From assembly GCA_947561395.2 (NCBI GenBank), contig OX387190.1, positions 9,108,858-9,172,857 on the forward strand: 64,000 nt of DNA, read 5' to 3'. The notes under the pieces were generated by a model. That model did no database searches. It was not told the origin of the DNA and was given only the letters and a program-made list of their open reading frames with translations. The DNA comes from Buxus sempervirens. Its lineage: Eukaryota > Streptophyta > Magnoliopsida > Buxales > Buxaceae. A program made the position numbers and the translations under genes. This document shows positions 641 to 51,170 of this stretch, in pieces. Numbering within the stretch: position 1 is the stretch's first letter; every line of letters starts with the position of its first letter.

Positions 641-3600
641 GGGTAGCATGCGGCCTTACCCGAGTTAATCTTGGGCCAAGCCCTCTTTTCATTTCTCAAG
701 GAATTTGGGCCACTGCCTTCCATATAATACATCAATAACTTGGCCAACGCCCTTCATATATGGGAGTTGAAGAGTTTTTGAGCGCATTATAAATTGCTCA
801 ATGTGTACGATCAGAATTCGTTTGGTCGGCAGAGAATTCTAAGCAACAGAAATTGAATTGGATTGTTGGAGAAGAGAAAATCTAATCTACAGAGGTGAGT
901 TGAATTGGTTGGATCTGAAGAAGACGGATTGAAGTTGAGACTCTGTTCATTGAGGAAGTGCGTCTGATCTTGTTGATCAGAAGTTTCGTCTAGATCTCAT
1001 TTTAGATCAGGTAAGAACGATTAAGAGATTGTTTTAGTTTGATTTGGTTAGGTTTTATCATGTTTTTAGTAGAGATATTAGATCAGGTGTTAAAAATCAG
1101 TTTTATGCAAATTGCAGTATTCGTTGGAGAAGTTCTGGGCATGGAGAAATCTGATCAGCATTGCTGATTTTTGTTGAGTTGGAATTACAACAAAGTCGGG
1201 CAAGAAGCACCTTCTGAAATCATATATTCGTATGGTTTTGTGATTATCTAAGGATTTAGAATTGAAATAAATCAAATTCTGATTTCTATTCATTAAAGAG
1301 CGTTTGATTTGTGATTCCTATTAATCTGGATTAGATTAATTTCAAGAGTGTAGAATTGTGTTAATTAGATAGATTGCAATGTGTTAGATGTATTTTAGAA
1401 GAATGAAATTGGTTCAAGTGTTAAAGAAATTGAATTGCAGAAGAGTGCGGTTGATTTGGTTTTTAAAATAGTTGGGCACCTAGGGCTGCTCACCTGCCCT
1501 AGGTAGGCGCCCATGTTAGTTTTGTCAGATTTTTGGCTGGGCGCCCAGGCCAGGGTAAGCCCCCTCTTTATTTTATTATACGTGCAGCAGATTTGTCCAT
1601 TGAGCATAATTTGAGTTCTAGCTTACTAAACCTTTCCAATTGAGTTGATCTAAGTTCAATTAGCATTCAAGTGTTATTAGAACCTTATGGAGGATAAGTT
1701 ATTAATATGGATTAAGGGATTATTGTGAGTCAAATATTAGCAAATGCCTATTATAATTTTTGCAGCATGTGGTTGAGTTTCTGTTGAGCATATTTTTGTG
1801 TTCTAGCCTATTATATTATTTCACCTGAGTTATTCAAGGATTAATTGGTATTTCAAGAGCTTATAGAATTCTACTGAGGATTAAACTGATATTAAGGATT
1901 AGGAAATAATTAGTATTGGAATCAATTAGTAGAGGATATTAGCAAATCTAAATTCATGATCTAAGGTGGTTGGGTATTCGAGGAATTCTAGAACTGATTT
2001 TAATCTTATTGAATTAGCTGAATTTTTGTCATGACTTTAATAGTATTTGATTATGCTTTCTCAGTAAATTACTGGTTATCATTTTGGTTAAATTGTAAAG
2101 TACTTTTACCAGTTGTGCCGATTGCTGGAAATTTTTCTGTTTACTAAATTGAGTGGTTATTTGGATTGAAATTGGTATTGTCAGTTATAAAATGATTTCA
2201 TTTACCTTGAGCATGATTTTACGTTAAATTTGCAAATAATATGATAATTTTGTCAAAGCTATTACTGTAAAACCCCGATTTTTCACCTAATAAATAAATA
2301 AATAATAAATAAAAGAAAATATGAGTTAAGTCCTAGTTAAAATAAAAAGTGAAGATTTAGAGGATAATTAATTCAAATAAGTTCTAAGTTGAAGATAAAG
2401 AAAGAATTTTAATGAAATTAGCCTAAAAGAATAAAAAGGGTATTTTGGTAATTTCCAGAAAAGGGTAATTAGTGAATAGATCATCAAATAATAATTAGAA
2501 TTAGAAAATAGAAGAAAACAAATTATTTTGACAAGTTAGAAATTAAAAGAAATTAATAAAAGCCTAAAATAGGGAAAAAGGGTAAGTAGGAGATTTCACG
2601 ACTTAATTTGGAGAAAATAAGGTTTTAAGTGATAGAAATGTTTAATTAAATATTTTGCACGAAATTAGGTTATTTTCATGAGTTTAGATAATAAGAAACT
2701 TAATTAGTATTAGTTAAGTTGAAAATAGAAGGTGGAGAAAAAGTAGGAATTAAATTAGAAGGATTAGACATTAACTAGACCATGGTTGGGTTAGCCCAAA
2801 TTTAATTAGCCAATTAGGGTTGGTTTAGGATTTCTAAAGCCTAGTATAAATAGGAGATTAAGGTTAGAAGAGAGGTAATTTTTGTGGGTTTCTTATGGAG
2901 AGAAAAGAGGGAGAGAAAGGAAGGAGGTCTCTAATGGAGGTGTCTGACCAGCCACCATCAAAACGCGATCGGGGAAAATCCGTACGGTGGATCGCCTTCA
3001 TATTTTGAGGTTTTGTTCGTGACTGATAAAACTACATTGTGAACGGTGGAGATTTGAATTGGAAGAGTCTAGCTTGGAACGGTTGGGAGCAACATTCTGG
3101 TCCAAAATTAGAAGGTGCAATGGAAGAAGGATTTAGCGTATAAGGCAAGTAGTAACCCTTGGAAAACGTGAGGAATTGCATGATTTTGATTTCTGTGATT
3201 TCATATGGATTGAACGGATTAGTCGGAATAGTATTTACATGGAATCAAACTATTTACATGTTAGTGATTTGTATTCTTGAAGGATTTATTGAATTAAAGA
3301 AGGAAACTTAGTTTGATTATGTAAATAAAGGTAGGAGGGTATTTAATTAACAAGAATTAATCTGGAAGGCTTTAGGAATGTTTTAGAATGTTATTAGATT
3401 AATTTAGACCAAAGAAACATATGGCAAAGGCATAAAAATCAGAACTTTAGAAATCTGGAAAATTCTGTTAAAAATTGCACGAGCGCCTAGGATCGCCTAG
3501 GATCGCCCAGCACAGTAGAGGTAGGCGCTCTAAGTAAATTTTGTAGATTTTGGGGATTTTGTAATTCGAATAAATACCCAATAATTCTTATGATTAGTGA

Positions 3601-6074
3601 AGCATGTTAGCCTCTTTATAAGGACCTAATTAAGCTATAAAAATTATAAAATTAATTGGGAAAGATTAAGCAATAAATAGAAGGTTATAATGAAAGGATT
3701 GTTTATAAAATGGTCAAAGGGTATGGATATTGCTAGAAATAATACTACTGAAATTTATAGCTTATAAACATCTTTTAAACTTCATTCTAGGTCTGTAGAA
3801 CATGCTGGAAAAATAAAATACAGGAAATTCAAATAGAAACTAGCTTAGGTGCTAAGGTAGGAAATTGGATTCTAATAAAGGGATTAAGAAGGAAAAGTTC
3901 AAGCATGATTTGATTTACTTTTATTTGGGCTTTAAATGTGAATATTGGCTACTGGATTTGCATAAACTTTAAGTTGCATCGAACTTATGATTGATGGGTT
4001 TATTTTGAATATAATTAAAGAATTGCATCTGTTATCATGCAAAAGGCTCTGTTTGGATTATTGAGGATTGAAACATGGTTTTCACTTGGAATTGAATACT
4101 TTGGTATGGATTGGTATGTGGTATGATATTGTTCTCTTTAATTTTACGGTTGGGTGATACGGCTTCTGTGGTAGAGTTTGATACTATCTTTTACGACAGA
4201 GATGGGTAATCCTCTGTGTAGAGATGTGTAATCCTTTACGGGTAAAAGTGTGTATGCCTCCTACATTAGCGTGTCCTCCCGTATGTGGTTTTATCGTGGT
4301 TTGTGTCAGTGGGCTTAGCTGTATATGGATCCATAGTTTTGGCTGGTTAGCTAAGTGGTATTTAGTTTGGGTTGATTTACTCCTATATTGCGAGCGCGCT
4401 TCCCTTTGCAAGTTAGTTTGCTCTGGGAGGGTCCTATGTCTGGAGGGACACCCCGGTGAGCCGCTGGTGATTCCCTGTACATGTGGATAAGCGACCACAC
4501 TCCATGTATTGATTCTGGTGCTGCATGCGGGTGGTACGTCCAACTCTGCGGGGTTCGTGTGCAATAAGTCGGTGACTACGGCTCTTGTCTAAGCTGCGCT
4601 GCATGGGGCTTGAGTATCATCAAGTAGCACTGCCCCTAAGCCGCACGGTGGAACAGCATTTAGTTGATTGTCATCTCAAATACTTATCATCTTTGTGAGT
4701 CCTGCAATGGCACGTGTTTTATCGCTTTTGTCGGTTTTACCCCGTTAACATCAAGCTACTGGTATTTATACATGATCGTCTGTTTTATCGCTTTATTTGG
4801 AATTGCCATGGATAACTTGGATTTCTCGTCTTATCGTTGATTAATCGAATACCTCATGACTATTTGCTTATATTGGACTGTTTCAAATTGCATGCACCTG
4901 CTACTTGCTGAGATGTAAATCTCACTCCGTTTTCCCCTATTTTTCAGGTTGCTTGGAGAGATCGCGAAGATGGGGTTTTGATTTGATGGGTAGAAATATA
5001 ATTGGTATTAATGCCACATGTTCATTAGATAAACTTTATTGTAAACAGAATTGATATTATTGAATAAAGAATTGTTGTTATTGGCCACCATAACTCTGAT
5101 GTAATTAATTTGTAAATTTTAAAATTATTGTGAATCTTGGTGTGGATCTGACCCCAGCTTCGTGGTAACATCTCGAGTTTGATTGTTGAATCGGACTTGT
5201 GTTGTTACAGTAGCGAACCGGGTTCGGGTTGGGTGCTGGTTTGCACTGACCCGGGTTCGGGGCGTTACAATTACGGGCGAGACTTAGTGTGGATCCACAG
5301 TCTAGTTAGTAAATGGATTTTGTACATTTTGTTTGGATTTAAGTTCAGGGGTCCTTAGTGTGTTTCCACCATGATGGAGAGGCCTTCCATGAGGGAAGTG
5401 CTGCAGCAACTTTGTTTCCACCATGAGGGTGAAGTCACACGAGTATTCATCATGAGGGTGAGGTTTTGGATCTTCGAGCTGTTGCAATGTTCTTCGACGA
5501 GATTGTTTGGAACATTAGTGCTTAGCTACACAAAATAGACAAACTTCATGAGTTCCACTATATTATTTTCCGAATTTGATATTGATATCGATTATGATTT
5601 TCGCTGTATATTCGGGATTAGTCGGATTAACCATGGTTCACCGTAAAATTAATTGATTGTAACTATGCATGATTTAGAACTGTTATAAATGTATTTCTTT
5701 GCATTCATATGTTACTTGCTGAGATATTCGTATCTCACTCGTTTTGCTTTGTTTTCAGATCTCGGTGAGGACGACACTTTGGGGGCAGATATTCTGGCAG
5801 ATTATTCGGAGTACCGTGAGGACTTTTACGTTGAATAGACGCATTTGTTATAGTTTCTGGATTTTGTTTTGGATATTGTGAGTTGTATTCATGGATATTG
5901 TCATTTCATTTTGGATGGTGATTGGGTTTAGTGAAACTTTATTTCATGTATTAGAAACTCTTGATCATATATTTCATGTTTTTCCTATACTTTGTTAGAT
6001 CCTGTGGAATATAGATAACCCTTCGAAAACGAGTTACGACTTTTCTACGTAACTCAGATCCGGGGCGTTCCACA
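640..6074 (+). mobile_element. Chromovirus-type LTR, interrupted by a younger solo LTR
   Basis: The plus-strand LTR has a promoter-like TATAAAT near 788-795, exon-like sequence and donor-like sites (CAGAG|GTGAGT near 893; TCAG|GTAAG near 1010). It has a GC-rich block with GGGCGCC words (about 1475-1560). After the nested LTR it continues with the GGATCCA box (5291), the TGAGATA-TTCG-TATCTCA hairpin (5720-5737), a TTTTCAG acceptor-like site (5758), a short acidic reading frame and an end of the GGGGCGTTCCACA type. Its right edge abuts chromovirus pol sequence, so it inserted into that older element. The left boundary is uncertain; no TGTAA start is clear. The nested 3 kb insertion makes it look twice its true length. 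Confidence 0.6.
2266..5269 (+). mobile_element. Solo LTR, chromovirus family, TSD ATTAC
   Basis: The copy starts TGTAAAACCCCG and ends GGGGCGTTACA. It is flanked by exact 5-bp duplications ATTAC (2261-2265 and 5270-5274), so both ends are certain. Length is 3004 bp with no internal coding region, meaning a solo LTR left by LTR-LTR recombination. In order it holds a TATAAATAG box (2845-2853), a donor-like GGCAA|GTAGTAACCC (about 3144), a GC-rich block GAGCGCCTAGGATCGCC (about 3480-3530), the GGATCCATAG box (about 4327), the hairpin TGAGAT-GTAA-ATCTCA (4909-4924) and a TTTTTCAG acceptor-like site (about 4949). It inserted in an older LTR of the same family and orientation. Confidence 0.92.
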
Positions 6075-6447
6075 GAGGGGATGGATGGATTTGCTTAAGG
6101 ATAATAGATGCACTATACATTATCATCCAGGCAAGGCTAATGTTGTGGTAGATACTTTGAGTCGCAGAGGAGCAGTGGATGACACTATTGCCATATTAAC
6201 TACATTCATGACTAGTTAGTTTAGATTGATTGATGTGGTTAGAGATTGGCATGGGGAGTTTGTTTTATCCAGTGATGGCATGATTTTGGCACGTGTGCAT
6301 GCAGAACTAGATTTGATACAGTGGATTCAGGATAAGCAGTTGCTTGATCTTGATTTGACTACCACTAGAGAGTTGGTTAAAACCGGATTTGATATAGCTA
6401 GAGATTTTGAGGATAGAGATGGTCTTTTAAGATTTGAAGGTATGATT
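6075..6447 (+). pseudogene. Chromovirus RNase H end / integrase N-terminal relic
   Basis: Translation gives a DNRCTIHYHPGKANVV stretch and LSRRG, the hallmark C-terminal end of plant Ty3/gypsy RNase H. It is followed by the linker that leads to the integrase zinc finger (WIQDKQ, DGLLRFEG). The relic stops where a later LTR inserted. It belongs to the same fossil as the integrase relic at 9503-10847. No function is expected now. Confidence 0.85.
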
Positions 6448-9400
6448 TGTAAAACCCAGAATTTTTAGCAAATAAATAAATAAAAATTAAATATGAATAT
6501 TTGGCATGTTAATGAATTGTCAAAATAAATTGGAGATTAAATATATAGCATATGATTTGGGGTACTTATAATTCATCCAGGATGTATAATGGATTAAGAA
6601 TGACAAAGAGAATAAATTTGGAAATTTTAGAAGAAATCGAATGCATAGATATAAAATTATCAAGAGAAGGGTATTATGGTCAATTCGTATTAATTATCGG
6701 TAAATAATTAAATACATTAATTAAATTATTATTAGACTTGAGAAATGATGATAAACTTAAGTTGGGTTTAGATTGCCTATTAACAATGATATTTATAGCT
6801 TAATAAGTAGAATAAGGGCATATTGGTAATTATAGTTGATTAGGAGCCTTAAGTTGAGGAGATGAGGGTTTTATTGAGGGATTTTAATTATAATTATTGG
6901 TGATCGCATTGATAGAGGAGATCAGGAGTTTGATACAGATTTGACCGTTGGATCGTGAGATATCAAGGTAAGTGTGGATTAAAGGTCATTTTTAAATCTG
7001 ATTGGTGGATAAGTATAGAACTTGATAGTAGGGAGATGCACAGGACCATGGGGAATAAAATAGGGTGTTATACCCTAGAGGAATGCTAATCGTATTCGTA
7101 GGTGTCTTTAGTTTGGTACTCGGCGGCTGAAGAGAAAAAAGAGAGAGAGACCGAGAGGAGAAAAGGAAGAAGAAGGAGAGTTTGATCTCGAGTTTCGTAG
7201 CATTCCAGGAGTGCTTGGAGTCTGTGAAGAGAAGAAATTGTTGTTGGTTAAAGGAGGAAGAAGGGTCATTCGAATCAGGTAGGTAACACACCCTGTTTTG
7301 TCATTGATTTGTATTTTCTTCGTGTTTGATCGTAAGTGCATATTTAATAGTAGTGTATATGTGTATTTAGTTGGATTATTGTTGCATATATACGTAGAAT
7401 TTGATTGAAATTGAGAAGTCATACGGTTTAGTTCTCGTGTTTGCCACGATTCGTAGGACGCCTAGTACGATCGCCTAGGCGATCATGGGTGTCAGTTTTA
7501 CAACATTCACGAAATATTAGGCGATGGGTAGGCGACCGTATGATTAGTAGGTCACTCAAGGGGATCGCCTAGACGATCACTTGAGCGCCCATTTAGGTGA
7601 AAAATTACGCTTATTTAAAACAGCCGCCTAGGCGACCAAATCGTAAATTTTTTTTAAAGAAGTCGCCCAATACATGGCTTGGGCGACCACTCTAGGCGAC
7701 TTATAATGGCTTGTAATCATTATAGGCCTAAATTTTAAATACTTTACTTTTACTTCATTGAATATCACAAAAACTTAATAACTTTCATTTGCTTTATTGA
7801 CCATCACCTAACCTTAATAACTTTTAATACTTAAACCAAATCTTAATTAATTCGTATATTTTAATTCTCCTCAACTAAATAGTAGTTACTTTTGTATACT
7901 TTTTTAGATTATCACTAAACTTTAAATAATTCTTGTTTCTTTAATTGACTCCACCGTATCATTAAACAATTGAATTTTATATTAATATACTTAATACATC
8001 ATTAGACCCGGACTTTAGCGTGTGTGTTATGCGTCCAATTTCTTGTATGATTAAATACCTATTTGATACTAAATCAGGTTATCACGTAAGCATATTTTTC
8101 TATCCTGAACGAAATATTATGATAAATAAATTGATGAACTAATTTCTGAACAAGACTTTGGATTATTGATTGAACATGAACCAACTATGTTATAAACAAT
8201 ACTGAAATGTGAATTATCGGTACAATGGCTTGGTGGCCAGTTTTATTTATAATCTACTTGGTGGCAGAGCTATATTTGTATTACCTGATTGGTGGCAGAG
8301 ATTATTACTCGCTTGGTGGCGGAGACCCGGATGGTGGAGACCCTTACCTGCTTGGTGGCGGAGACATTACCTCCTGCGGGAGAGACATATTTCCTTCTGT
8401 GGGGGAGATGTAGTTCAAATGGGATTGCATCTTACAGGAGAGGTACCTTATGTGGAGGAGATGTAATTATACGTGATTGCATCCCATATGGGGGATGGGT
8501 GTGTGAGTTACCACCGGAAGGTGAGGAAGCTATCTCCCGCTATAGAGGTGGGTACCATGTATTCACATTTTGTGGTCGAGTTATGCTATTCCCTGCAGGG
8601 GGTACTTGCGATCTTAGAGATGTGCATTCTCCTGCGGAGGAGGTGTGGATACTGTGTGTTTACGTCCTACGGTAGAGGTAGGCTACTACTCTAAGGTGGG
8701 CTTTTACTTTTGACTATTTATGGTTGTTCTTCGATTGATGGATCGATTTAGCCGTGTTTGACAAGAATGGTAAATGAAATATTAATATGACATAATTGAA
8801 CGGAATTGTTGTGACTTGATTTGAATTGTTAAAATTTAATATTATTGAAACAGGAATAAAATGTAAAATTGTTCTTAGGAAGACAAATTGAAATAAATTG
8901 GAAACCAGGTGATTGTGATATATAATTCAATTTCTTTCAAATTGAAATTAAATTTACATGAAAAACTTTCTTTATTTCGAGCACTGATTTAATGTTGGGT
9001 TGTATCGTGATTATTCGATTATTTTGTCAACCGTGATGATCGCTTATCTTATCGAGCATGAAATCACTGTTGTTTTCCTTATATATATACTATTTTCTTT
9101 ATGCATAGTATTACCTACTGAGATATTCGTATCTCACCCCTACTTTTTAATGTTTTATTTTCAAGTCATCTTGAAGATGATGCCTCGGGTTAAACTGATA
9201 GTGGGCTTGAAGTCTAGAAAATCCAGAGGGCAAGAGTAGGATATTTATATAGCAGTTTTCATTTTCTTGGATTAATAGTAAATGATCTAGTAGAATTTAA
9301 GAGTTAGTTAAACCATAGTTGCCCTTTCTATTGATGAACTTGATGTAATTGAATTTTGAGGATTCTATGGAATAAGGAGAAGTTTCTTCGCACACTCTGA

Positions 9401-10847: not shown

Positions 10848-13174
10848 TGTAATCCCCCGAATTTTCCTTTAAGAAATTGTTTAAACTATTGAAGAAATAT
10901 TGGAATAAGTGATTAACAAGATTATATTGATATGTATAGGAGATGAACAGGAAGATTAAGTTTAAATTTTTTTAAGGATGTAAAGAATGGGAATATACAA
11001 CCTAGTATATAATTGAGCTTTTATTTGAGTTTTAATTGGTGAAGGTGTATGAGCATGATAGATACGATTTTAATGAGCATGATAGATATGCAAGGCGGGC
11101 TAACATATTTTAATTAAATATTGATAAATTACTTAAATAGACATGGTTGGACGTTCAAGCACTTTTAGAGACGAGTTTTGACAAATAAAAATTCCTAAAT
11201 ATGTTAGAATTAGATTTTTAAGTATAAATAGGAATTTTTAGGAAATTAGAAAGTTTTATTCTTTTGTTATGGACGTGAGCTATTGAGAGAGAGTTTGCTG
11301 GACGTGTGGTTTAGAGTTTGAGAGAAGAAATCACGCCCAGAATTGAAGGAGAAGAAGAAAAGTTGCTGTTTTTGCGAGTTTAGAGTTTGGACTTGTAAAA
11401 GAGACAAGTAACACCCTTGTTTTCATTTAATTGTTGAATGATTTTTGTTTATTTATTAATGATGATTTATAAATATATTATGAGATGTTTTAGAAGCAAA
11501 ACCATGATAGTTTATACAAGAAATTCGTAGGTTGTATGTTTATGTTTTGGGTTTCTAGAAAACAATTAAATTATGAATGTGTTTGGTTTTGATTGGATTT
11601 GATTTATAAACGAAGCTTTATTGTGTTTATATTTATCTAACATGTTTAGAGGATGTTTATGAATGTTTTCGAAGTGATTTGAGGAGTTGGTTTGGTGTTA
11701 TTTAATTTTAGTTTGAAAATTCGCAAAATCAATTTTACGATTTAATACGGACGCTGGCAATCATGCTCGAGCGCTATGCCAGACGCCCCACCTATGTTTT
11801 TTTTTTAAATTTCAAAACTCGAAAGTTGAAAATTTTTGTAAACCGAGCGCCTGAAAGTTGAAAATTTCAAAACAGATTTCTGGAAAAATAGTTTTCACGG
11901 GCACCTGCAAATAGCGCCCGACAGCGCTCAAGTGCCTATGACAGAAAATTTTATATTTTTGAAATATACCTAGTTTTTTATTGTAAAATTGTTTTTATTG
12001 AATTCCAACTCATGTATCAATAAGATTAGAGTGTTTTGAGAATGTTTACACTGGCCGTTGATTAAATTGAATTTTTATAAAGATTTTGGGTACGTTCTAC
12101 TAAAATAGCTTGTATTCGAGTTTATCGTTCCAAACTCTTTTTTTTTTAACTTGGTTGATTTCTACACTCGTATTTGAATTATATTAAAATGTTTCTAGGA
12201 TTGTTTTGATAGAATTGTTAATATTTTCCTTCATGTACCTCAGAGTGATTATTTTCTCACTCATGCAGCTTGAGTTTGAGTATTGTTTTCTTACATGTAT
12301 CCTGGAGATGATTTGAGATTAAATTATAATTGATGTGGATTGTTTTTGGGTATCAAAGATAACATGATTTTAGTCTTTTGTTTGTGTGTCTAATGAGCAT
12401 AGCTTGGTACGGATCCATAGTTTAGTTAGGAGTGAAAATAGTATTTTCTTTGTTTAGTTAAACATGTTTCGTATATGCTCCCATCATGTATCTCGATGAG
12501 GCCTTCCTGTATCAGGTTGTACTGCAACAATCCCACCCGTTGTGTATCTCGATGTGGTTATTTTGGACTACCCACCTTGTATCTTGGTCTGGTATTCCCA
12601 TATTGTTGCAATTGATTGGATTGTACGTGATAACCCTTAGTATATCTCTGTTGGGTGATTCGCGATAAGTTGATGACTGTATATCTCAGCTTTGCACATA
12701 AGCCGTGAGGTGGCAACCCTTGACTCAAGCATTTAATTCTTTAGATATGTATTATTTTCACGAGTCCTGTGATGTCACATCATCGCGAGGATTTGGTTTG
12801 TTTTGATTGGAAAATATTGTTTTGATGTTGATTTGGAAAATGGTTTGCAAATGAATTATCCGTTACTGTTCTATATTTGAAACACATGCTATCTTGAAAT
12901 ATATGGTAAAATGTTTTATTCATGTATGTATTACTTGTTGGGATTTTATATCTCATTCTTGATTTTTTTTTGTTTTGTTTTCAGATATTCCTGGAGAGGA
13001 CAATACTGCTGGGGTAGATCCATAAGGTACTAGTGAGGAGAATCCATCTGACGATTACATAGAGGATGGCTACTATTGCCTTATGTAGGATTTGATTCAT
13101 GTTTTTAGGAGTTTATTTTTCTGTAGTTAGGGTGTTATTTTATGATTGGTGAGATGAGAATGAGTGAGGCTACA
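10848..13174 (+). mobile_element. 3' LTR of the chromovirus
   Basis: It starts TGTAATCCCCCG directly after the purine-rich tract that closes the pol region. This links the whole LTR family in the window to a chromovirus. It contains TATAAATAG (11223-11231), donor-like ACAA|GTAACACCC (11406/11407), a GC-rich block (about 11745-11940), the GGATCCATAG box (12411), a TATCTCGATG-type repeat (12486-12600), the hairpin TGGGAT-TTTAT-ATCTCA (12939-12955), a TTTTCAG acceptor-like site (12984) and a short acidic frame. The right edge is taken where a reverse LTR (TGTAACGCCCC) begins; the family GGGGCGTTACA end is not seen, so the LTR may be truncated. Confidence 0.85.
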
Positions 13175-16020
13175 TGTAACGCCCCAAATCCGGGTCATTT
13201 TTCTTTCATGACTCAGATCAAGGTATTAATTTGTGGTACATCACAATCAGCTCAAAAGATAAGACTAAAAGAATTAAGAATCATCAGAGTGCTAGGAAGC
13301 TTAAATTATTCATTAGAATCTATATCTTACTATTATATCAATTAATCAAATGAAAGGCAACTACAATTTAACTAACTCTAAAACTCTACTAGATCATCTA
13401 CTATTATTCTAAGAAAATAAAAATACCTATATCAATATCCTACTCTTGTTTTCTGGATTCTCAATTCTTCAAGTCCACTATTTGATAACCCCAGTGGTGT
13501 CCTCGCCAATATCATCTGAAAACAAACATTTAAAAGCGAGAATGAGATATAAAATCTCAGCAAGTTGTAACATGCATGAAAGAAAATAGTTTACATATAT
13601 ATATATATATCTCCTTTACAAACCTTTTATGAGTTGCAAAACAATATCACAAGTATCGTTAAAATAAGAAAACAAAGCCGTATAAGTCAAATCTACAATT
13701 TTCCCCAAATTAATACAAATAGTTTTTTCCAAAACATTTCATCATGTTAATCATGTCATTTTAATATTTCTTTTCAAAACCGTTCTTATCAAAACATGGC
13801 TAAACCAATCAATCAATTTTTTTCTTCTTTTTTTTTAATGAAATCAAATCATTTATAATTAGTAATTAAAGCTCACCTTCAGGTAGTAGCCTACCTTTAC
13901 CGCAGGATGTAAGCATATAGTATTCACACCTCCTCCGCAGGAGAATGCACATCTCTAGACCGCAGGCCACCCCCCCCCGGCCGCGCGCAAGAGGTAGCAT
14001 AACTCAACCGCAGAATGTGAAAACATAGCACCTATATTTCCCCCCGCAGGACATAGCTTTCCCACCCTTAAGTAATAACTCACACACCCATCTCCAATGT
14101 AGGATGCAATCATGTAGTAATCACATTTTTCCCACATGAGAAATCTCCCCTATAGGATGCAATCCCATCGGAACTACATCTCTCCCACATGAGGTAATAC
14201 GTCTCTCCTGTAGGAGATAACACACACATCTCCTCTGTGGGATGCAATCGCATCATGATTACATCTCCCCCACAGGAGGTAACACATCTCTGCCATCAAG
14301 CAGGTAAAAGTCTCTGCCACCAAACAGGTAATACACATCTCTGCCACCAAGCAGGTAAAAGTCTCTGCCACCAAGCAAGTAAAAGTCTCTGCCACCAAAC
14401 AGGTAATGCACATCTCTGCCACCAAGCAGGTAAAAGTCTCTGCACCAAACAGGTAATGCACATCCAAGCAGGTAAAAGTCTCTGCCACCAAACAGGTAAT
14501 ACACATTTCTACCACCAAGCAGGTAAAAGTCTCTGCCACCAAACAGGTAATGCACATCCAAGCAGGTAAAAGTCTCTGCCACCAAACAGATAATACACAT
14601 CTCTGCCACCAAGCAGGTAAAAGTCTCTGCCACCAAACAGGTAATGCACATCTCTGCCACCAAACAGGTAATACACATCTCTGCTACCAAGCAGGTAAAA
14701 GTCTCAGCCACCAAGCAGGTAATCAATAAATCTAGCCACCAAGCCATTGTACAAATAATCCACATTGCCATTCATGGCATATAAATCATTCCATGGTACA
14801 TGGAAGAGTATAAATCCACAATCCAATTTCGTATATAAATTAGTTTGTTCATATTCAATCAATAATCCAAACCTCTTGCCAATACTTATTATATTTCAAA
14901 ACATAGGTTCAAAGTACTCAAACCTATTATAAAAGTATTTTGATCATTTCAGGACTTAGAATCACATCTAAAACAATGTTTTATAGGTGTTGAAATCAAC
15001 CAAATTGATTTTAAACAAATTCTAGAACCAAAACTCTCTTTCAAGTCAAACAAGACATACTTCAGTAGAACGTACCCAAAACTTTATATAATTTTTATAA
15101 AATTAATCAACCACTGAAAACAGCTTATAAACACCAAAATCTTATTTGTACATGTATTTGATTTGTCTAAAAAATCATTTTATAATAAAAATCTAAAAAT
15201 ATTTCCCAAAATCAGAAAATTTTGGTTTGGCGCTCAACCCTTTGTGTCTAGCAGTCTACCAAAGCAAAACAGATAAAATGGGCGCTTAATAGGGTGCTCA
15301 AGCTATTGTGTTGAGTGGTCAATAATAGAAGTAATACGGATGAAACGCTTGACATGGTCGCTTGAGCGACCTATCAGGCACTCACCCAATTGCAGCAAAA
15401 CCTAGAAATCCAATTTCTGTAATTTTTCTATTTTAATCCTTTAAATCATGATTCCAACAATTCAAACCACTTCTAATACATCTAATATCATTTATAAATC
15501 ATATTAAATCATTCTAAACAAATCAAAACACAGATTTACTACAAATCAAAATCAAAATCTTAGAAAATCAACTATAGAAAGCATACTTAATAGATTTCCT
15601 AAACCCCATCTAAGATCATTCAAACCCACGAAATTTACTATATAAAATACATGGTTTGGTATCCCAAATCATCATATGTTAATTCCAGCTCAAACTCAAA
15701 CGATTAAACCTAAAATTATGTAACGATAAAACAAAACGGGGTGTTACTACTTGCCTCAAAATGCAAAATCCTTCTCTTCAAGGTACAGCCGAAATCTACT
15801 ATTATCGCACCCCTCTAGAGATCTCAAAACGCATTTCCTCGGTTCAGATTGAAGCCCCACCAGTCGTGAACAAAACCCCCAAATTTGAGGCTGATCCAAC
15901 GGTTGAATCTTTCATGATCGCACTTGGATGGACGCTGGTCAAAAATTTCGGCAGCATCTCTTTCTATATTCCCCAAATGTGAGAGCCCTCCTTTCTCCAC
16001 ATTTTCCTCTATATAATTCG
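13175..16020 (-). mobile_element. Chromovirus-type LTR, reverse strand
   Basis: On the plus strand it opens TGTAACGCCCC, the complement of the family's 3' end. Read on the minus strand it has the full module: TATA-like TATATAGAGG (about 16006-16015), donor-like GGCAA|GTAGTAACACCCC (about 15738-15752), a GC-rich block (about 15225-15390), a very long GGTGGC minisatellite (14280-14745), the hairpin TGAGAT-ATAAA-ATCTCA as written on plus (13543-13559), TTTTCAG (about 13514) and an acidic frame starting DDIGEDTTG. The upstream terminus is not recognisable, so the right boundary is only a lower limit. Confidence 0.75.
14280..14745. repeat. Long minisatellite, CACCAA(G/A)CAGGTAA units
   Basis: Close to twenty units of about 24-30 bp alternate between CTCTGCCACCAAGCAGGTAAAAGT and CTCTGCCACCAAACAGGTAATACACAT-like forms. 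They lie inside the reverse LTR. Adjacent units are nearly identical, which suggests recent expansion compared with the seven-odd degenerate units at 8220-8410. Reading frames on both strands here are artefacts. Confidence 0.95.
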
Positions 16021-16611: not shown

Positions 16612-19600
16612 TGTGCACGCGTCAGATCCGTGGGCCGCACGTCTCATTGATGGCTGGGACCTCCTTTGGGAGAAAATTGGGTAATGGGAGTTGCCACTGC
16701 CTGATGGGGTGTAGGCAGACACAAGGATGCCTAGAAGGCTATCTATTGGGTGGTCTGCAGCTTGAGATTCTGTTTAAGTGCCCGGTTGCTGTTCGGGGAA
16801 GTCCGTAGACACTTCGGTTTGCCCCGTCGGGTGACGATTCCCACGGGTTATCTTGGTTAATCCTGACTTGAGTCGACCTGTCCTATGCCAGTATGCATGT
16901 TTGATTGAGTCTTGGTGGGACCACATGTGTGGTGCAGGCCCCCTTTATTTTGATTTTATCTTTTTTTTTTATCCCAAATGATCTGGGTCTGATGTGTGGC
17001 CCTGTTGGAAGGCCCATGGGATGCCAAGTTGGGCTTTATAGAAAGCCCAGGTCATGTTTGGGGTTACGTTGGATAACTCCTTTTCGGTTTTGGTTTATTT
17101 GGTTTGGAAGTGACTTAAGCATACAAAGATTGATTGGTTTAAGTTTTTAAGGAAGATCCCTTGGGCTTGGAGAAGGTCCATAGGCTTATCCAAAATGCTT
17201 GTGATCCATTATTGAGATGGATCTTGGTTTGGCAAAAGAGGTGTGGGCGGAAGGCCCACAAAGATGGATTACTGGGCCCAGGGTAGGCCCACATCCCAAG
17301 AAAGGGCCCTTAATGACTCAGAGCCCAAATCGGCTCAAGGTGAGTTGGTTAGGGTTAATATTAATCTAAATTAACCCAGAAAATTTGAGTTTTCATCTTT
17401 TTGTGGCCTGTCCATATATTACATGCGGACAGGCTTGATCCGTATATACCATACGGACCAGACGTATCCGCTCTGTGTATACGGGCAACACAGAAAAATA
17501 TAGAACTTGAAATTTCCAAGGGGGAAACAGGATCCCCTACTTCATGTGGGTCTAATATTCTCTGTGGGTCACTGTGTTGACCCACAATGGCTTCCAAAGT
17601 TTGTTTTTCGCTCAATAAATCCAATTTTTATGCTTTTGTACAAAGAGAAAATGAGTGAGTAGGCTAGGAGCCTTTCCCTCACTGTTTTGAGTTAAAACTC
17701 AATGGATTTGGGTGGGGAAGAGGTTCCCCACCTTGGTTGCAAGCAAGACAAGATAACCCCCTTTAGAAAGAGGCTATCCAGTGACCCGAGAGGTCGCTTG
17801 CCTAATGGCCATGGCCAAACCATGCAAGGTATGCTCAAAGGAACAATAAAAACATGTTAAGTAATCCAACGAAATATGATATAGTGGAGTGTGTGCAAAC
17901 ATGGATTATAATCATGGTTTAAAACATGTTTGCAAAGTATCAAAGAGCATGAAATTTAAGTTTTGTGTGTGCTCATGCTATGTGTGTATGCAAGACTATA
18001 AACACATGCAATCATTCATGCAAGCCTAAATGAACTAGCAAAGTAACATGAAGATCATAAAAAGACAAGTAATATGAAGAGTTAAAGGGGGTTTAAGGGA
18101 TACATCGGATGGAGGGAGGGGAAGGAGAACATGATCTCTTTTTTTTGGATAATGAAAAGGAAGATGCATGGAGAGGCATGACAGTGAGGCTTTTACATGA
18201 TTTTGCAATTATGTGGCCCTCATTATCTCCCGTTTAGCCTAACTCCTTCCCCTTACCATGGAAATCTCTTCTTGACAAGAACGACTAGAGAGGAGAGGGG
18301 AGAGATATATGGTGATCACAAAAACATGCTAAGAGAGGTACTTACAATCCTTAAGACATGCTTAGAATAAGCTAAATTTCATATATGTTGAAATAAAGTT
18401 TACAAGGAAGCTTACCTTGAAAAGAGAGAACCTTTGGAGGTGTATAGGAGTCCCTTGAGGTTGTAACAGCAACTTGAGCACTTCCCTTGAGCTCTAAAAG
18501 ACCTCCCTTGGTTCTTCTTCTTAAAGTAAAGAAGAAGAGGTTAGGAGAGGGTTAGAAGGTGTTTGGGGGAGGTTGGTATGCTTGGGAGTGAGTGAGAATG
18601 GGTTTGTAGAGAGTTGGAGAGCTTGGGGAAGAAGAGCTTCTTCTTTTTTTTTTGTAAAAAAAAGTATGCTCACATGGCCCTTAATTTCATATATGTTGAA
18701 TACAATGTATGGAGAAGGCTTACCTTGGGGGTTAAGGCCTCCTTAAGTGTGTGTGGGATCTCCCTTGAAGGTTGGACAACAAATGGAGTACCCTCCTTCA
18801 GTTCCCAAGCAATCTCTTGGCCTTCTCCTTGGTTGAAATGGAGAAAGAAGTGGATTGGTGTTGTTATGGGAGAGGTTTGGAAGGGTCTAAGGTGCTTGGG
18901 AGTGAGTGAGAAGGGTTATGGAGAAGAGGGTTAGAGAGGTTAGGGAGAAGGGTGCTAGAGAGGAGGGTTAGAGAGTGAGCTCAAGAGAGACTAGCCAAAG
19001 GGAGATTAGGCAAAGAGAGACTAGCCCTTGAGAGTAGCCCTCTCTTCCCTTTTTATAGAGAGGGTACTTAGTTGTTAAGAAACACTTTTTTGTTATTATT
19101 TTTGTTTACTGAGTGGTTAAGAATCACTTTATTATTATTATTTTTGTTTGCTTACTTTTTTTTTGTTTACTTAGTGGTTAAGAAAGAGAGATGAGGTGGG
19201 TGACGACCACGTGGCGCAGTTTGCCACGTGGGCAGCTTTTCTGCAATTTTGCGTTGTGGCTTGATCTACTCATAACCTCTTCATTCAGACCCCGATTCTG
19301 GCAAACTCAGTTGTATCGGAACCGTGTCAGGATTTTTTATCCATTGAGATAGGGTACGGCAATAAATTCAAGTTTTGAGCAGAAAGCCGAAACCGCTCCC
19401 AGAATTTAAAACTGCTCATATCCGGTTCTGATACGCTTGATTGCGTCGGAACCATGTCGAGATTTCCTATCTTTCCGGATAGGGATGACAATTAATCTGG
19501 GTTTGAGCAGAAAGTCAATTTCTACTCCCCTGGGGTTTGATCTACCCATAACTTCTCCGTCTAGGCCCCGATTTTGGCAAACTTGATTGTGCCGGAACCG

Positions 19601-19888
19601 TGTCAAGATTTCCCATCCATTGGGATGAAGTATGGCCGTCAATCTGGGTTTAGGCAGAAAGTCAATTTCTGCTCCCTAGGGTTTGACCGGCTCATAACTT
19701 CTTGATCTAGACCCCAATTTTGGCAACATCATTTGCGTTGGAACCATGTCGGACTTTCCTATCCATAGAGATAGGGTATGATAGCCAATTCAAGCTTGAT
19801 CAGAAAGTCAATTTCTGCTCCCTAGGGTTTTGACCTATTTTGCTGTTTTTAGCACTTTTTTGGTTTAATCAAAATTTGGGTGCTTACA
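16612..19888 (-). mobile_element. Solo LTR, Tat/Ogre-type family, TSD AGCAG
   Basis: Exact 5-bp duplications AGCAG at 16607-16611 and 19889-19893 bound a 3277-bp reverse LTR. Its minus-strand start reads TGTAAGCACCCAAATTTTG, the same type as at 29405 and 51171, the latter being attached to an Ogre-type gag. It has a TATAAAAA box (minus strand, about 19050-19058), two G-boxes CACGTG (19208-19213 and 19225-19230), and four tandem copies of a 130-146 bp unit (about 19260-19850). Near its 3' end is the conserved CGCCCCGTCGGGTGACG-type segment (about 16820). There is no internal coding, so it is a recombined solo copy. Confidence 0.93.
19262..19850 (-). repeat. Tandem ~146-bp repeats in Ogre-type LTR
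   Basis: Four copies can be counted from the ACC(G/A)TGTC word at 19321, 19451, 19597 and 19743, giving periods of 130, 146 and 146 bp. Each contains GACCCCGATT-TGGCAAAC and a GGAACC(G/A)TGTC box. The homologous array at 29531 is in the same LTR position. Confidence 0.93.
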
Positions 19889-22149: not shown

Positions 22150-25100
22150 TCACACATGAAATGAATGACGTGGTGGCTCAAACCCTGATCTCTCGCCAAT
22201 AAAATGACAGTAGCGCTTCCATCCCATCCGAAATCTGTAATCTCTCTTATATGCACGGACATGTTGCTCATACTCCTCCTGTGTCATATGAGCCATGATA
22301 CCAACTGGAGGGAAATCATCATAATAGTAGCACGTCTCTTGCTCTGGTGGCGACGGAGGAGACGGCGCAGGATAACCGGGATGCGCGTATGGAGGGGCTA
22401 CTGGTGCAACTCCAATACCAATAGGTACAACAGGCATAGGATAATATCCGGGCGGATATGGATTCACTGGAAAGATCCCAAATGGATCAGATGTCTGCAT
22501 GTGTGCTCCAGGATATCCGTATGATGTACTATAACTACTAGTATCTGATGAATCTGCTGGCCCAAGCTGCTGAGGATAATAGGCTGGATAGTGTCCCTGG
22601 GTCAGCTGTGGTGGATAGTGAGGATACTGCTCTCCATAAGAACTCGATGATCCTCCAAGATCTAAAGATCCGAAACTCTGTGCCATGGAGGACGAGTCAT
22701 CGTGCATCCCTGTATGCTGTCTCTCCTTGCCTTTCCTCCTCTGAAAGGAATATCCCCCACTCTCATCAGGATCTCTATCTCCGTGGTCAGTATCCTGTGT
22801 GGTATGATGGAAAGCCGCCTCTCCAGTAAATGGGCTCAACCCCGGGCCACTGGTGCCAACACCACCATAACCACCATAATCATCATAACCACGACTAGCA
22901 CCACCATCTCCATCATCATCATCTGAAGATCCGGACTCATCCTCATCATCTGTCTCCCCCTCAATGTCCTCATCAGTCTCCTCCTCATCTGTCTCCTCCC
23001 CCTCCTCCTCCTCCTCCTCTGACAATGAAACATGCCTACGGGCTGGGACTGGGGCTGGGATTGGGGCTGGTGTCGTCGCAGTAGCGGAGGAAGGAACAAC
23101 TCTGATGAGGTTATCCAATGAGTCTCCGCGAACCTCCCCCCTCTCCTCCTCCATAGCTGCGTCTACATCGATGCCCAAGTCTGCTGCAGCCTGGGATATG
23201 ATTGGGCTAGGACTACGATCAGGCTGATCCATCTCAACACATCTAACCCACTCTGCAAATGGATCCTCGTCATCAACTTGATTACTGAATAACATATCCA
23301 AAGGATCATTCACAGTCCCGGCGGCGGTGCCGCGCTCTATCTCTAACTGTTTCGTCCTCAGCCTCATGTTATAATGGCAGAAGACCAACTTCTGTAACCT
23401 CTGATAAGCTAGCCGGTTCCTCTGCTTCATGTGTATGAGTGCGAACGTACTCCAATTGCGCTCACAAGCAGAAGAGGATGCTGTCTGAGCCAATATTCGA
23501 CATGCTAACTTCCTCAGTGTAGGGGCACTTGTGCCATACATCGCCCACCATTCACCTGCATTTACAAATAGAAAATATTAAAAATTATTTAGAAATTAGA
23601 AATTTAAAATATTAATATTCATAATCCCTTGTCACTTACACGGCATCATCTTGTCCCTTGACGCAATCGCTGTAGTCAACCCGAATGAGCCCATCGCATA
23701 TCTAAATTGTATGATCTGGTATTGGAATAATTTGAAATGGTCAATACTTAATAATTAATATAACTATTAAGAAAAAGTGATATCCATAACATAAGTGAAG
23801 TTAAATGCTACGGCCCCCTACCTCGTTTCCAAAATCCCCAACTGATTCTGAATGGGGGTCCAACTTCATGAAAACCTCGTGGACACGAGCGCAGAGATCG
23901 TGCTGTGCGCCAAGATTATCCTTATAATGATATTTAGGATTCAAATAATACGCTACATTGACGATTACCAGAAAAAACATCAGTACAATAATTAAAATAT
24001 AAGTATAAACATGATTCAACATAAAATGATTTAAATAAAATTGTAATTATACCTGCTGCATGCAAAGGATGACCTAGCGACTTCATCCATCTGTCTTTAA
24101 CAATCTTCAGTATCCACTGATGTGATTTGGGTGCTGCGGCCTTAATCTGAGCTTTCATCACCGCCATACACTTAAAAATGGATCCTACGGTAGGATAGGA
24201 ATCTGTGTCAAGCAGCCGCAGTATACGATATATGGGGTGCAGTACAGCAATCAACTCTCGCACATGCTCCCAAAAAGTATTGGACAAAACAATCTCTTCT
24301 ACTCTCCTCCCGGTCTCTTTGCGACTCTGAGCACAACTCGTCCATTCGTCACTGGTAAATAGAGCTCTCAATCCCTGCCTGTTGCTCAGAATACTATCCA
24401 ATGCAATATAGTTCGTACCGAATCTGGTAATCCCTGGCCGAACTAAGTCCCCACCACATTTCTCTCTCATCTTCGCTAGTACGAAATTATGGTTGTACAC
24501 AAATGTGGTGAGTGCTCGTGCATCCTTCAATGTCGTCAGCACATGGCTTCTCTTGCCAATCTCCTCTAGTATCAAGTCAATGGCATGTGCAGCACAGGGC
24601 GCCCAATACAGGTTATACCGCTGCTATAATGTCTTACCGGCTTTCATGAACGCACTGGCACTGTCTGTCACAATCTGAACGACGTTCTCAACGCCAACCT
24701 CCTGTATCACGCTCTCTAATAAGCTGGTAATATAGGGCGCATCCTTGATATTGTGTGATGCGTCAACAGATCTCACGAACACTGCCCTGCCTCTACAATA
24801 CACCATAAAATTGATGATGGACAGTTTAGTAGGACCTGTCCATCCATCACACATGATCGTAACTCCAAACTGCTCCCAGTGGGGTCGTAGCGATGTAATA
24901 AACTCTCTCATCTCTGCCTCCTCCTGATCCAAGTACGTACCCATAATCTCCCGTGGCGTAGGAGGCAAGACTCCCTGACCCGACTCCTGGATAACATTGA
25001 CCATGTTCTTGAAATGGGGGCTCGCTGCTGCATTCGCTGGAATGTGATTGAAGATAAAAAATTTTGATATAAACTTCCCCATTTTCTCCCTGACAGTGCC

Positions 25101-25739
25101 CTTGCTCCACACATCCTTCAATTTCTTCTGCTTGGCACCAGATGAACGCCACATACTCGGCTCCATAGGATAATCAGGCATCCTGGTGCTAGGTCTAGCC
25201 CCAGCCCCATGTCTAGAACTAGGAGTAGTAGCATCAACATCTGCATCTCCTCTAGACGTACCACCCCTGTGAAATCCATGCCTCGCAGCCTCTGCTCTAT
25301 CAAACTCAGACTGCAAAGATGCTTGCACTGAGGCTCTGAATGCTGCCCTCTCTCCCTCTGTCACATACTCGGGTGGGTACACCATATCATCGTCGTCATC
25401 AATATCAGGAGCCACAGAGGGTCCGATAGGCTCTGCCAATCTATGTCTAACCTCCTCCCGTGCATGCCTCTTCCCCTCCCTAGCTGCACTCCCTGATGCC
25501 AAGTGTTGTTGCATCAGCTTTTTAACCTCTGGAGGGACTTGACGACAGTTGGCCACGTTATTGTAGCCGTGTGCCAAATGCTGCTTCAATCGTGATACTC
25601 CACCACCCTTTATGACTTGGTGGCAATAGTTGCAGACCGTCTTATTTCTGTCTCCCTCGAATCTCGTGCAATGGGCCCAACCAATATCCAGCCTCCTACC
25701 AGCATCTCTGCCCTCTCCACTACCACTGCCAGATGCCAT
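22150..25739 (-). pseudogene. hAT transposase, four exons, one in-frame stop
   Basis: Exons on the minus strand: 25739-24053, 23952-23822, 23715-23640 and 23555-22150. All introns are GT-AG, phases agree, and the total is 1100 codons with the stop at 22150. Exon 1 has a BED-type zinc finger (CNYCHQ ... HLAH, about residues 20-60), an acidic linker and a DUF659 domain (DGWTG, INFMVYC, VTDSASA, about 280-365). It then continues into the hAT RNase-H-like region (CAAHAIDL, about 380). Exon 4 starts in EWWAMYG and holds the hAT dimerisation region (SSACERNWSTF, RNRLAYQRLQKLV). About 300 C-terminal residues are disordered: Asp/Glu-rich, then Pro/Tyr-rich. The only visible defect is a TAG at 24624-24626 after AGKTL. 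It could be a recently inactivated copy or an allele. A domesticated host gene is unlikely given the flanking terminal repeats. Confidence 0.9.
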
Positions 25740-25906
25740 ACTGTCTATCCGTCTGACTGTCTCTAACAGACTAACCAGAAAGTACTACACTGGAATCTGA
25801 ACACCTGCACAAACGCACAGACGCACAATAAGTCAATAACAGAGCACAATAACAAATTATAAATATTAATCCACATTAGACAATACTAACATTACCAACT
25901 AATTAA

Positions 25907-26700
25907 TAACTAATTAATTTTCGGATTAATTAATTCCAAAAAATAAAAAATATAAAAAAAAATTATATAAACTCCAATTATTTAACATAAATCATTCTAC
26001 AATAACTAAATCAATTTAATGAATTTAATTTGCTTATTTATCTTTTTTTATTAATTTTATTAATAACTAATTAATTTTCGGATTAATTAATTCCAAAAAA
26101 TAAAAAATATATAAAAAAACTATATAAACTCCAATTATTTAACATAAATCATTCTACAATAACTAAATCAATGTAATGAATTTAATTTGAGTATTTATCT
26201 TTTTTTATTAATTTTATTAATAACTAATTAATTTTCGGATTAATTAATTCCAAAAAATCAAAAATATATAAAAAAACTATATAAACTCCAATTATTTAAC
26301 ATAAATCATTCTACAATAACTAAATCAATGTAATGAATCTAATTTGAGTATTTATCTTTTTTATTAATTTTATTAATAACTAATTAATTTTCGGATTAAT
26401 TAATTCCAAAAAATCAAAAATATATAAAAATTTATATAAACTCCAATTATTTAACATAAATCATTCTACAATAACTAAATCAATTTTATGAATTGAATTT
26501 GAGTATTTATCTTTTTTATTAATTTTATTAATAATTAATTAATTTTCGGATTAATTAATTCCAAAAAAATCAAAAATACATAAAAAATTATATAAACTCA
26601 AAATTTTTAACATAAATAATTCTATAATAAATAAATCAATTTTATGTATTAAATTTGGCAACTTATCTATTTTTCTTCATTTTATAAATTATATATCAAT
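25907..26700. repeat. Tandem array, 155-157 bp AT-rich unit
   Basis: The word TAA(C/T)TAATTAATTTTCGG recurs at 25907, 26064, 26221, 26377 and 26532, with a degenerate sixth near 26687, giving periods of 157, 157, 156, 155 and about 155. Units also share ATAAATCATTCTACAATAAC. The array lies between the transposase start and the right end of the hAT, on the promoter side of the gene. Confidence 0.95.
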
Positions 26701-26750
26701 TTTCGGATTTAAAAATTAATAAAAAAATTAATTTTCTAAAAAATTAATCC

Positions 26751-50900: not shown

Positions 50901-51170
50901 AAAGCATTATCATTGCAGTAAGTGCTACCTTTGGGTTTAGGAATCACTCTCATTGCCTTTGCCATCTTAAGGAAAGCTTTAGTAAATTCGTTAGTTCCTT
51001 TCATTTGGGTGAGGGAAAGAAATTTGCCTTACGGTTATTGGATAATATTGCTTATGCAAAGCTTTCTCAGGACTATGAGGCGGCATCGGAGGCCATGCAT
51101 GAATATGCACCTGAATTGTCTGACTGGGTGAGGAGAAATGGCCCGGAATACTAGGCAAATGCATTGTTCT
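47971..51170 (+). mobile_element. MULE (Mutator-like) transposon, left part
   Basis: It is identified by the transposase at 49595-51170. The left end probably lies near 47971-48120, where GGCAAAATTATGGAAAATGGTC and GGCATTTTTGCCC resemble MULE termini, but no matching right end is in the window. 48180-48600 is a GC-richer leader with a donor-like CCAAT|GTGAGC near 48594. 48600-49590 is AT-rich, intron-like and shows no other gene. The element is cut at 51170 by an Ogre-type retrotransposon. Confidence 0.7.
49595..51170 (+). pseudogene. MULE transposase, broken and truncated
   Basis: Exon 49595-49875 encodes GRWVGGG..GIIV and a PB1-like region (TDQDALSYILNF, ANVYIYEGE). The intron is 49876-49971 (GT-AG, phase kept). 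The next exon has the MuDR DNA-binding region (KTPDKFRQAVYKHAMANRF, ISIHCIGEDYPWKLTVRC) and the DDE core: LLFIDGSHLSRPYQG (first Asp), VRDRNQSI (second Asp) and SHCLCHLKESFSKF. Stops occur at 50429-50431 and 51152-51154, the second in place of the Trp expected in YWANALF. The C-terminus is lost to the LTR insertion at 51171. It resembles plant MULE and MUSTANG-type transposases; the stops argue against a working domesticated gene. Confidence 0.9.

Follow-up and report, generated by a model that had tools for sequence, protein, structure and literature searches.

In human immunodeficiency virus 1 (HIV-1), the major splice donor lies in a stem-loop, and this leader structure over the 5' splice site, like that at similar retroviral donors, keeps a share of the RNA unspliced to serve as the genome. 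How one transcript of a plant long terminal repeat (LTR) retrotransposon is split between translation and packaging is, to our knowledge, largely open. Parts of a 2025 review name Ogre and EVADE/Ty1-copia as exceptions among plant LTR elements in having both spliced and unspliced RNA; in EVADE, splicing is said to take out the protease domain, a part of the coding region (PMC12786077). In yeast, intron zipper stems and downstream stems that lie outside the splice signals are described, in sections of another study, as helping splicing (PMC12350175). Here, we analyze LTRs in a 64,000-nucleotide (nt) stretch of the genome of Buxus sempervirens (contig OX387190.1, positions 9,108,858 to 9,172,857; hereafter, the window) and their relatives in the same genome (676.5 Mb, 247 contigs). 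A small hairpin in these LTRs looks, from sequence comparisons, like one half of a bigger RNA fold that spans the two splice signals of an intron-like stretch. As in HIV-1-type donors, RNA structure would cover a 5' splice site and leave part of the RNA unspliced, but the partner strand is 0.8–2.2 kb downstream, abuts a branch-site hairpin, and the intron is inside the LTR. As described for Ogre and EVADE, spliced and unspliced RNA would be made from a plant LTR element, but unlike the intron described for EVADE, the one here would sit in the LTR leader, thus at both ends, and not in the coding region. Unlike in the yeast stems as described, the splice signals themselves are predicted to be paired.

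The original prediction placed a hairpin before an acceptor-like site in eight LTR copies, and direct inspection of the window agrees with all eight in coordinates, strand, and sequence. The sequence TGAGATA-TTCG-TATCTCA, which was the focus of the prediction at 5720–5737, where the letters and a fold bear it out, is also present at 9119–9136 and on the minus strand at 52008–52025. The other versions are TGAGAT-GTAA-ATCTCA at 4909–4924 (fold of -7.2 kcal/mol, z of -2.6), TGGGAT-TTTAT-ATCTCA at 12939–12955, TGGGATA-TTCG-TATCTCA at 47185–47202, and, on the minus strand, TGAGAT-TTTAT-ATCTCA at 13543–13559 and TGAGAC-ATTC-GTCTCA at 86–101. We refer to these LTRs and their families by the first of these coordinates. 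The acceptor-like motif is likewise present, with its last base 21–29 nt after each hairpin. It is an intact TTTTCAG in six copies (5752–5758 in the 5720 LTR fragment; 4941–4947 in the 4909 LTR; ending at 12984, 13516, 51982, and 60 in the 12939, 13543, 52008, and 86 copies, respectively) and has decayed to TTTTCAA in the 9119 (TTTTCAAG) and 47185 (ending at 47229) copies. Branch sites follow the consensus YTNAY, and the right arm of the hairpin provides it as CTCAY in all eight copies, ahead of a T-rich tract and the acceptor. Together, the right arm, T tract, and TTTTCAG read as a complete putative 3' splice site. Searches of the whole window against Rfam yielded zero matches at the gathering score, and a search of 4700–6200 at E values up to 1 yielded one chance-like match (5353–5400; 20.1 bits relative to a cut-off of 38.3).

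A candidate 5' splice site (AG|GTRRGT or AG|GCAAGT) lies 1–2.2 kb upstream of the hairpin in six of seven window LTRs in which one could be placed. On the plus strand, these are AAG|GCAAGTAG in the 4909 LTR (junction 3144/3145; helix strand GCAAGTAGTAA at 3145–3155), CAG|GTAGGTAA in the 9119 LTR (GTAGGTAACAC over 11 nt, 7279–7289, with 7279 the first intron base), GAG|GTGAGTAG in an LTR that starts at 32783 (33208/33209), and GAG|GTAGGTAG in the 47185 LTR (junction 45693/45694; GTAGGTAGCAC over 11 nt, 45694–45704). On the minus strand, they are GAG|GCAAGTAG in the 13543 LTR (GCAAGTAGTAA over 11 nt, 15744–15754, first intron base 15754) and GAG|GTAGGTGA in the 52008 LTR (GTAGGTGACAC over 11 nt, 53434–53444, first intron base 53444). 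The seventh, in the 12939 LTR, is AG|ACAAGT (ACAAGTAACA), the best complement of its hairpin flank and not a usable 5' splice site. No site could be placed for the window copies at 86 and 5720, and the 5' half of the 5720 fragment was not identified in the window. Elsewhere in the genome, GT or GC sites are present in loci of the 4909 (L229–L231), 52008 (L232–L234), 47185 (L235 and L236), 86 (L240), and 5720 (L003, L005, L006, and L241) families and in L237. Locus L243 has CAG|ATAGGT instead of a GT/GC site, and in L239, L242, and L244 the sequence ends short of the site or no site is visible. The presumed intron of the 13543 LTR, at 2,239 nt, is the longest of six measured, and an internal repeat with a spacing of ∼85–95 bp occupies 14143–14742 within it.

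The plan of these LTRs is shared across families. A TATA-like box is followed by a mostly purine-rich, ATG-poor stretch, the 5' splice site, 0.8–2.2 kb of mostly T-rich sequence, a 9–11 nt complement of the 5' splice site, the abutting hairpin, a T-rich tract, and TTTTCAG. In the six of nine families in which both could be placed, the TATA-like box is ∼115–305 nt upstream of the 5' splice site. It is TATAAATA at 2845–2852 in the 4909 LTR, where it precedes the presumed exon 1 (TATAAATAGG is also found in L229, L230, and L231), and TATAAATA at 53653 on the minus strand in the 52008 LTR, which starts at 53877. Another family, X, has a different LTR start and the same plan, with a TATA box, GAG|GTAAGTAGG, and 829 nt ending with a hairpin and TTTTTGCAG. 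ATG content also changes at the 5' splice site. First exons of seven families contain 11 ATGs where their dinucleotide composition predicts 24.1 (Poisson P = 0.002; exon starts were taken from the TATA box, except that of family 86, which was set arbitrarily). Introns are not depleted (235 vs. 237 expected), and neither is the LTR part upstream, with 43 ATGs vs. 48.3 expected (five families). AT-rich motifs ∼35–50 nt before several hairpins had suggested a start-site hairpin similar to TAR. This reading was set aside, without a formal test, because the motifs are not in all families and a TATA box lies much farther upstream of the hairpin, followed by a presumed first exon and a 5' splice site.

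The 9–11 nt immediately 5' of the hairpin are the reverse complement of the 5' splice site of the same family. GTAAGTAGG pairs with CCTACTTAC and GTAAGCAACAC with GTGTTGCTTAC, and GCAAGTAGT pairs with GCTACTTGC and GTAGGTGACAC with GTGTTACCTAC with one G-U pair each. In the window, such complements are at 4898–4908 (CTGCTACTTGC; joint best against 3145–3155 over 1778 positions, with one tie), 5709–5719, 9108–9118 (best of 1862 positions), 12928–12938, and 47174–47184 (best of 1511) on the plus strand, and at 13560–13570, 52026–52036 (GTGTTACCTAC; 11 bp, best of 1438), and 102–112 (copy at 86, with the 5' splice site of its family in L240) on the minus strand. When scored over 11 nt, the flank is the best or joint best complement in six of six introns (804–2214 positions each); in two introns, one other position ties. 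For most families, the choice of 5' splice site had been made by consensus before complementarity to the flank was noticed. Of 40,320 permutations of the families, true order included, 24 reach the observed run length and 72 the observed number of paired cells; when two like families are merged, 12 and 24 of 5,040 permutations do so, respectively. These counts are not strict probabilities because the families are related.

We also ran the test in reverse, with the 10-nt flank as the probe, for 41 nonredundant hairpins (from 72) with at least 700 nt upstream and an acceptor-like motif. With scores of at least 9 of 10, 11 of 12 matches are located directly after an AG vs. 4 of 18 for shuffled flanks, and with scores of at least 9.5 these are five of five vs. 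zero of two. The 11 matches are not independent because the 5720 flank hits the neighboring 4909 site, one match is AG|ACAAGT, and some are from the same family. From one family to another, changes in the 5' splice site are matched by changes in its complement, and the 5' splice site and branch-site regions can base-pair, with covariation.

Two-strand folding predicts that the helices are adjacent with no unpaired base between them in six of seven families. Four of the seven models have G(-1), the last base of exon 1, paired with the hairpin's first U, and the branch adenosine is then open at the junction. The adjacent helices could mean that the structure helps splicing, by bringing the 5' splice site next to the branch adenosine over a distance of 0.8–2.2 kb before being opened by the spliceosome; in favor of this, the models pair G(+1) next to the pair of the branch A, with no gap between the helices in six of seven families. 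But U1, U6, and U2 must bind the very signals that are paired here, positions +1 to at least +9 and the branch A. In Arabidopsis, branch sites of spliced introns are reported, in the relevant part of one study, to be more single-stranded than those of retained introns (PMC7784297), which favors a gate on splicing over a structure that helps it. We consider a role in helping splicing to be rather unlikely. The two-helix structure in the LTR is itself well supported.

Covariation of the hairpin is a further line of evidence. A T-A to C-G switch on both arms had been proposed from the window; it is evident in the copy at 86, and this is the only window family with a two-sided change, so the window alone is thin evidence for covariation. 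We therefore searched the genome with two patterns for versions in which the fifth pair is other than A-T. There were 7 and 133 matches (100 of the 133 were listed), and reversed-pattern controls had zero each. Among the matches listed are a recurrent family, TGGGTTT-GTGA-AAACTCA, and rarer C-G and G-C forms. Over window copies and matches, loops include TTCG, GTAA, and GTGA. In the 43 distinct strings from these matches, the fifth pair can form in 37; when right-hand letters were redealt the mean was 31.3 and the maximum 37, meaning that at least one of 5,000 rounds reached the observed value. Inward extension of the stem over the same strings totals 81 pairs relative to a mean of 31.8 and a maximum of 57 with inner letters shuffled.

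Across 18 family-level versions, 93.5% of cells are paired (80.2 ± 2.5 in shuffles) and the covariation score is 0.416 (0.169 in shuffles), with neither value reached in 500 shuffles; slid registers pair just 29–50% of cells. The fifth pair is A-U in eight versions, U-A in five, C-G in four, and G-C in one. Two coarser counts are not unusual: pairs in which both sides change (three; 320 of 500 shuffles) and additional pair types (ten; 116 of 500). These versions were chosen with pairing known. Of 20 variant contexts, L247, L248, L250, L252, L256, and L258 were omitted as near-duplicates. Four unpaired matches were also omitted and then restored in a right-anchored test (n = 22), in which pair 5 forms in 18 of 22 (P = 5e-5), pair 6 in 18 of 22 (P = 0.004), and pair 7, not significantly, in 13 of 22 (P = 0.13). 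An acceptor is present in 6 of 16 paired variants by a strict rule and 10 of 16 by eye, and in zero of the four unpaired matches by either, which is why the latter look like chance matches.

A DNA palindrome bound by a protein could also conserve the sequence, and TGAGA and TCTCA are indeed nearly constant within the window families. Yet changes at pairs 5 and 6 preserve the pairing, and the loop varies in length. Among the family-level versions, the sense strand of the element has A-U or G-U at pair 3, where G-U would read C-A on the other strand; such G-T wobbles break the symmetry of DNA but not the pairing of RNA. The right-hand T of pair 3 is the fixed T of YTNAY. Simple conservation of a DNA site is thus highly improbable. 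The covariation of hairpin pairing is real between LTR families, and this part of the expected covariation is borne out; between copies within families, it is not. Selection on a folded RNA, as had been suggested, is supported by pairing that covaries across families and by a matching 5' splice site and second helix upstream.

We lean toward the reading, from sequence comparisons, that the hairpin makes up one half of a splice gate in the LTR, in which abutting helices keep part of the RNA unspliced. We infer splicing of the LTR intron, and its regulation, from the signals. RNA polymerase II transcripts would start at the TATA box and be polyadenylated downstream of the acceptor, which would place the intron within the R region, at both ends of the RNA. 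The helix at the 5' splice site and the hairpin at the branch site would compete with U1 and U2 and thereby delay splicing or prevent it. RNAs spliced before the gate closes would become mRNAs without most of the ATG-rich leader, and those that fold first would stay whole and serve as genomes. The RNA that is copied would have to be unspliced, since reverse transcription from a spliced template would yield LTRs without the intron. Transcription would reach the 5' splice site 0.8–2.2 kb before its complement, so early assembly of the spliceosome and later folding could compete, and this competition could set the split between mRNA and genome. For the fuller proposal, that several chromovirus-like LTR families share the intron, that the two-helix junction stacks the 5' splice site on the branch adenosine, and that it acts as a switch between mRNA and genome, we see about an even chance.

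Because the presumed R region is at both ends, both strands of the helix would, from this anatomy, be present twice per RNA. They could instead serve genomic RNA, by pairing end-to-end (in circularization or strand transfer) or in a dimer. This explanation leaves three features unaccounted for: the paired motif follows AG, as a 5' splice site does; the other arm, ahead of a T tract and AG, matches the branch-site consensus; and ATG content shifts at the 5' splice site. We regard it as improbable.

Several observations weigh against a splice gate. No intronless LTR is present among the best 40 matches of each of two junction probes (two families). This is expected if only unspliced RNA is copied, and it equally fits splice sites that are never used. 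The structure could then be conserved in an LTR intron that is not spliced, with motifs that look like splice sites by chance or through inheritance from a captured gene leader, and plant LTR retrotransposons are generally without introns, as stated in parts of PMC12786077. But in the 52008 family, the first exons of L232 and L234 are strongly different and the 5' splice site is retained, and 5' sites and their complements change jointly between families; we give the never-spliced explanation little credence. In the 13543 family, L238 has a broken site (GAG|GAAAGT). TATA boxes could not be placed for three families (86, 9119, and 5720), and second exons are hardly depleted in ATG (40 vs. 49 expected, six families).

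The structural evidence also has weak points. When complements are ranked by unbroken run, the flank is the unique best in two of six introns and is equalled elsewhere in four, and in the decayed 13543 window copy a run of six is reached by ten positions, itself included. In the reverse test over all scores, the best site follows AG in 15 of 41 cases (23 of 216 for shuffled flanks). Many of the low scores come from loci of the 9119 family with ∼1.33 kb upstream, where the site of the window copy is 1.84 kb away, but L048, L058, and L062 have more than 2.1 kb upstream and still show no good site. The 4909 pair has a different minimum in two-strand folding. Folded singly, the hairpins are weak (-5.3 to -8.3 kcal/mol; z of -0.04 to -2.6), and for two of seven an alternative fold is favored. 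The patterns used in the genome search held pairs 1, 2, and 4 fixed, leaving pair 3 and pairs 5 inward free, and all comparisons come from a single genome.

Decay of copies within families adds to these points. We collected 228 loci, including window copies L001, L009, and L039 (L001 and L039 were scored on one and the same hairpin), and apart from the first genome search, copies were fetched with queries that excluded the hairpin. The family hairpin is matched with up to four mismatches in 223 loci and was not located in the other five. An acceptor is present in 191 of 228 loci by the strict rule, and a stem is kept in 196 by a loose rule that was applied without a control and accepted stems of 6 bp or longer up to ∼30 nt from the expected position. 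Across all columns, departure from the family majority is 3.0–3.8% in the arms, 7.1% in the loop, and 6–10% in the flanks. The apparent stem-specific constraint was rejected, as it was gone once CpG columns were excluded, an exclusion made because the TTCG loop contains CpG. Without these columns (five families), the loop is at 4.3%, the arms at 3.3–4.6%, and the flanks at 7–10%. The expectation that arms would resist decay was thus upheld relative to flanks, below which both arms and loop fall, and failed relative to the loop. Outside pair 3, A-C mismatches are as frequent as G-U pairs in single copies (19, 5, and 2 A-C vs. 8, 9, and 2 G-T at pairs 2, 4, and 5, respectively). Decay does distinguish the hairpin from its flanks, but neither the stem from the loop nor RNA wobble; with stem and loop rates alike and A-C as common as G-U, it provides no structural evidence.

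The assignment of these sequences to LTRs is sound. All three LTRs checked at both ends have TG...CA termini and perfect 5-bp target duplications, and all are solo LTRs, each on the plus strand. The 4909 copy (2266–5269; TGTAAAACCCCG...CGGGGCGTTACA) has a complete module and is flanked on both sides by ATTAC, and the 47185 copy (45217–47626) is flanked by TGGTA. The third (32783–34518; TATAT duplication) keeps its 5' splice site, an acceptor (TTTTTAG ending at 34190), and, as had been noted, the right arm alone (34158–34164). In 34100–34164 of this LTR, the left arm and the complement of the 5' splice site are replaced by a stretch with a second GTTCTGGTCCAAA, as in a local rearrangement, with the splice signals retained. 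In the 52008 family, the 40 matches listed are all 98–100% identical to the window piece, and several of them are paired ∼7.15 kb apart on one strand (e.g., C11:18645503 and C11:18652652); judged by these sequences, this family is young.

Some features of the elements resemble those of chromoviruses. A motif after the LTR end on the minus strand of L008, GAGATGGTATCAGAGC, clear in this one locus, is complementary to what we take to be methionine tRNA and would be the primer site. Pfam Chromo matches precede the LTR of family X (L249; weak, E of 3.4e-05, 24.1 bits relative to a cut-off of 25.1) and another LTR (L042; weak, E of 0.0015, 18.9 bits). Plant chromoviruses of the Tekay/Del type are described, in parts of two studies, as having a methionine tRNA primer site, a purine tract, and TG...CA LTRs (PMC3605345 and PMC4029996), and methionine tRNA is the one named in PMC3605345. 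The Buxus elements resemble those described in these features and perhaps in a chromodomain-like sequence next to the LTR.

The sections of PMC3605345 and PMC4029996 that treat chromovirus/Del LTRs do not mention an LTR intron, hairpin, or splice site, and no such LTR intron is mentioned in the part of PMC2832683 that concerns LORE1. Variable LTR length is said, in a portion of PMC3601003, to have prevented models for LTRs of plant Metaviridae. Among the records listed by searches of open-licence full texts, we found no report of an LTR intron, this hairpin, or a branch-site structure in plant retrotransposons. Structure-gated splicing in retroelements is already known, and the form proposed here, an LTR intron with two-helix control, is apparently new to plant retrotransposons. 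If true, an abundant plant repeat carries a leader intron in its LTR with its own structural control, and a solo LTR that has the whole module would amount to a portable promoter equipped with splice donor and acceptor. The idea is testable with plant long-read RNA and structure-probing data.

The window has other repeats and transposon remnants. Tandem arrays are located at 25887–26743 (157-bp units; five overlapping 232-nt copies are 72–93% alike to a reference copy) and 58515–59509 (spacing of ∼52 bp). Three copies spaced by 147 bp at 29525–30038 are similar to 19441–19830 on the opposite strand. Pieces of a hAT-type transposase extend over 22150–25784 on the minus strand in three long frames with a BED zinc finger, DUF659, and a hAT dimerization domain. 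Two adjoining frames on the plus strand (49919–51154) encode a MULE transposase and a MuDR DNA-binding domain.

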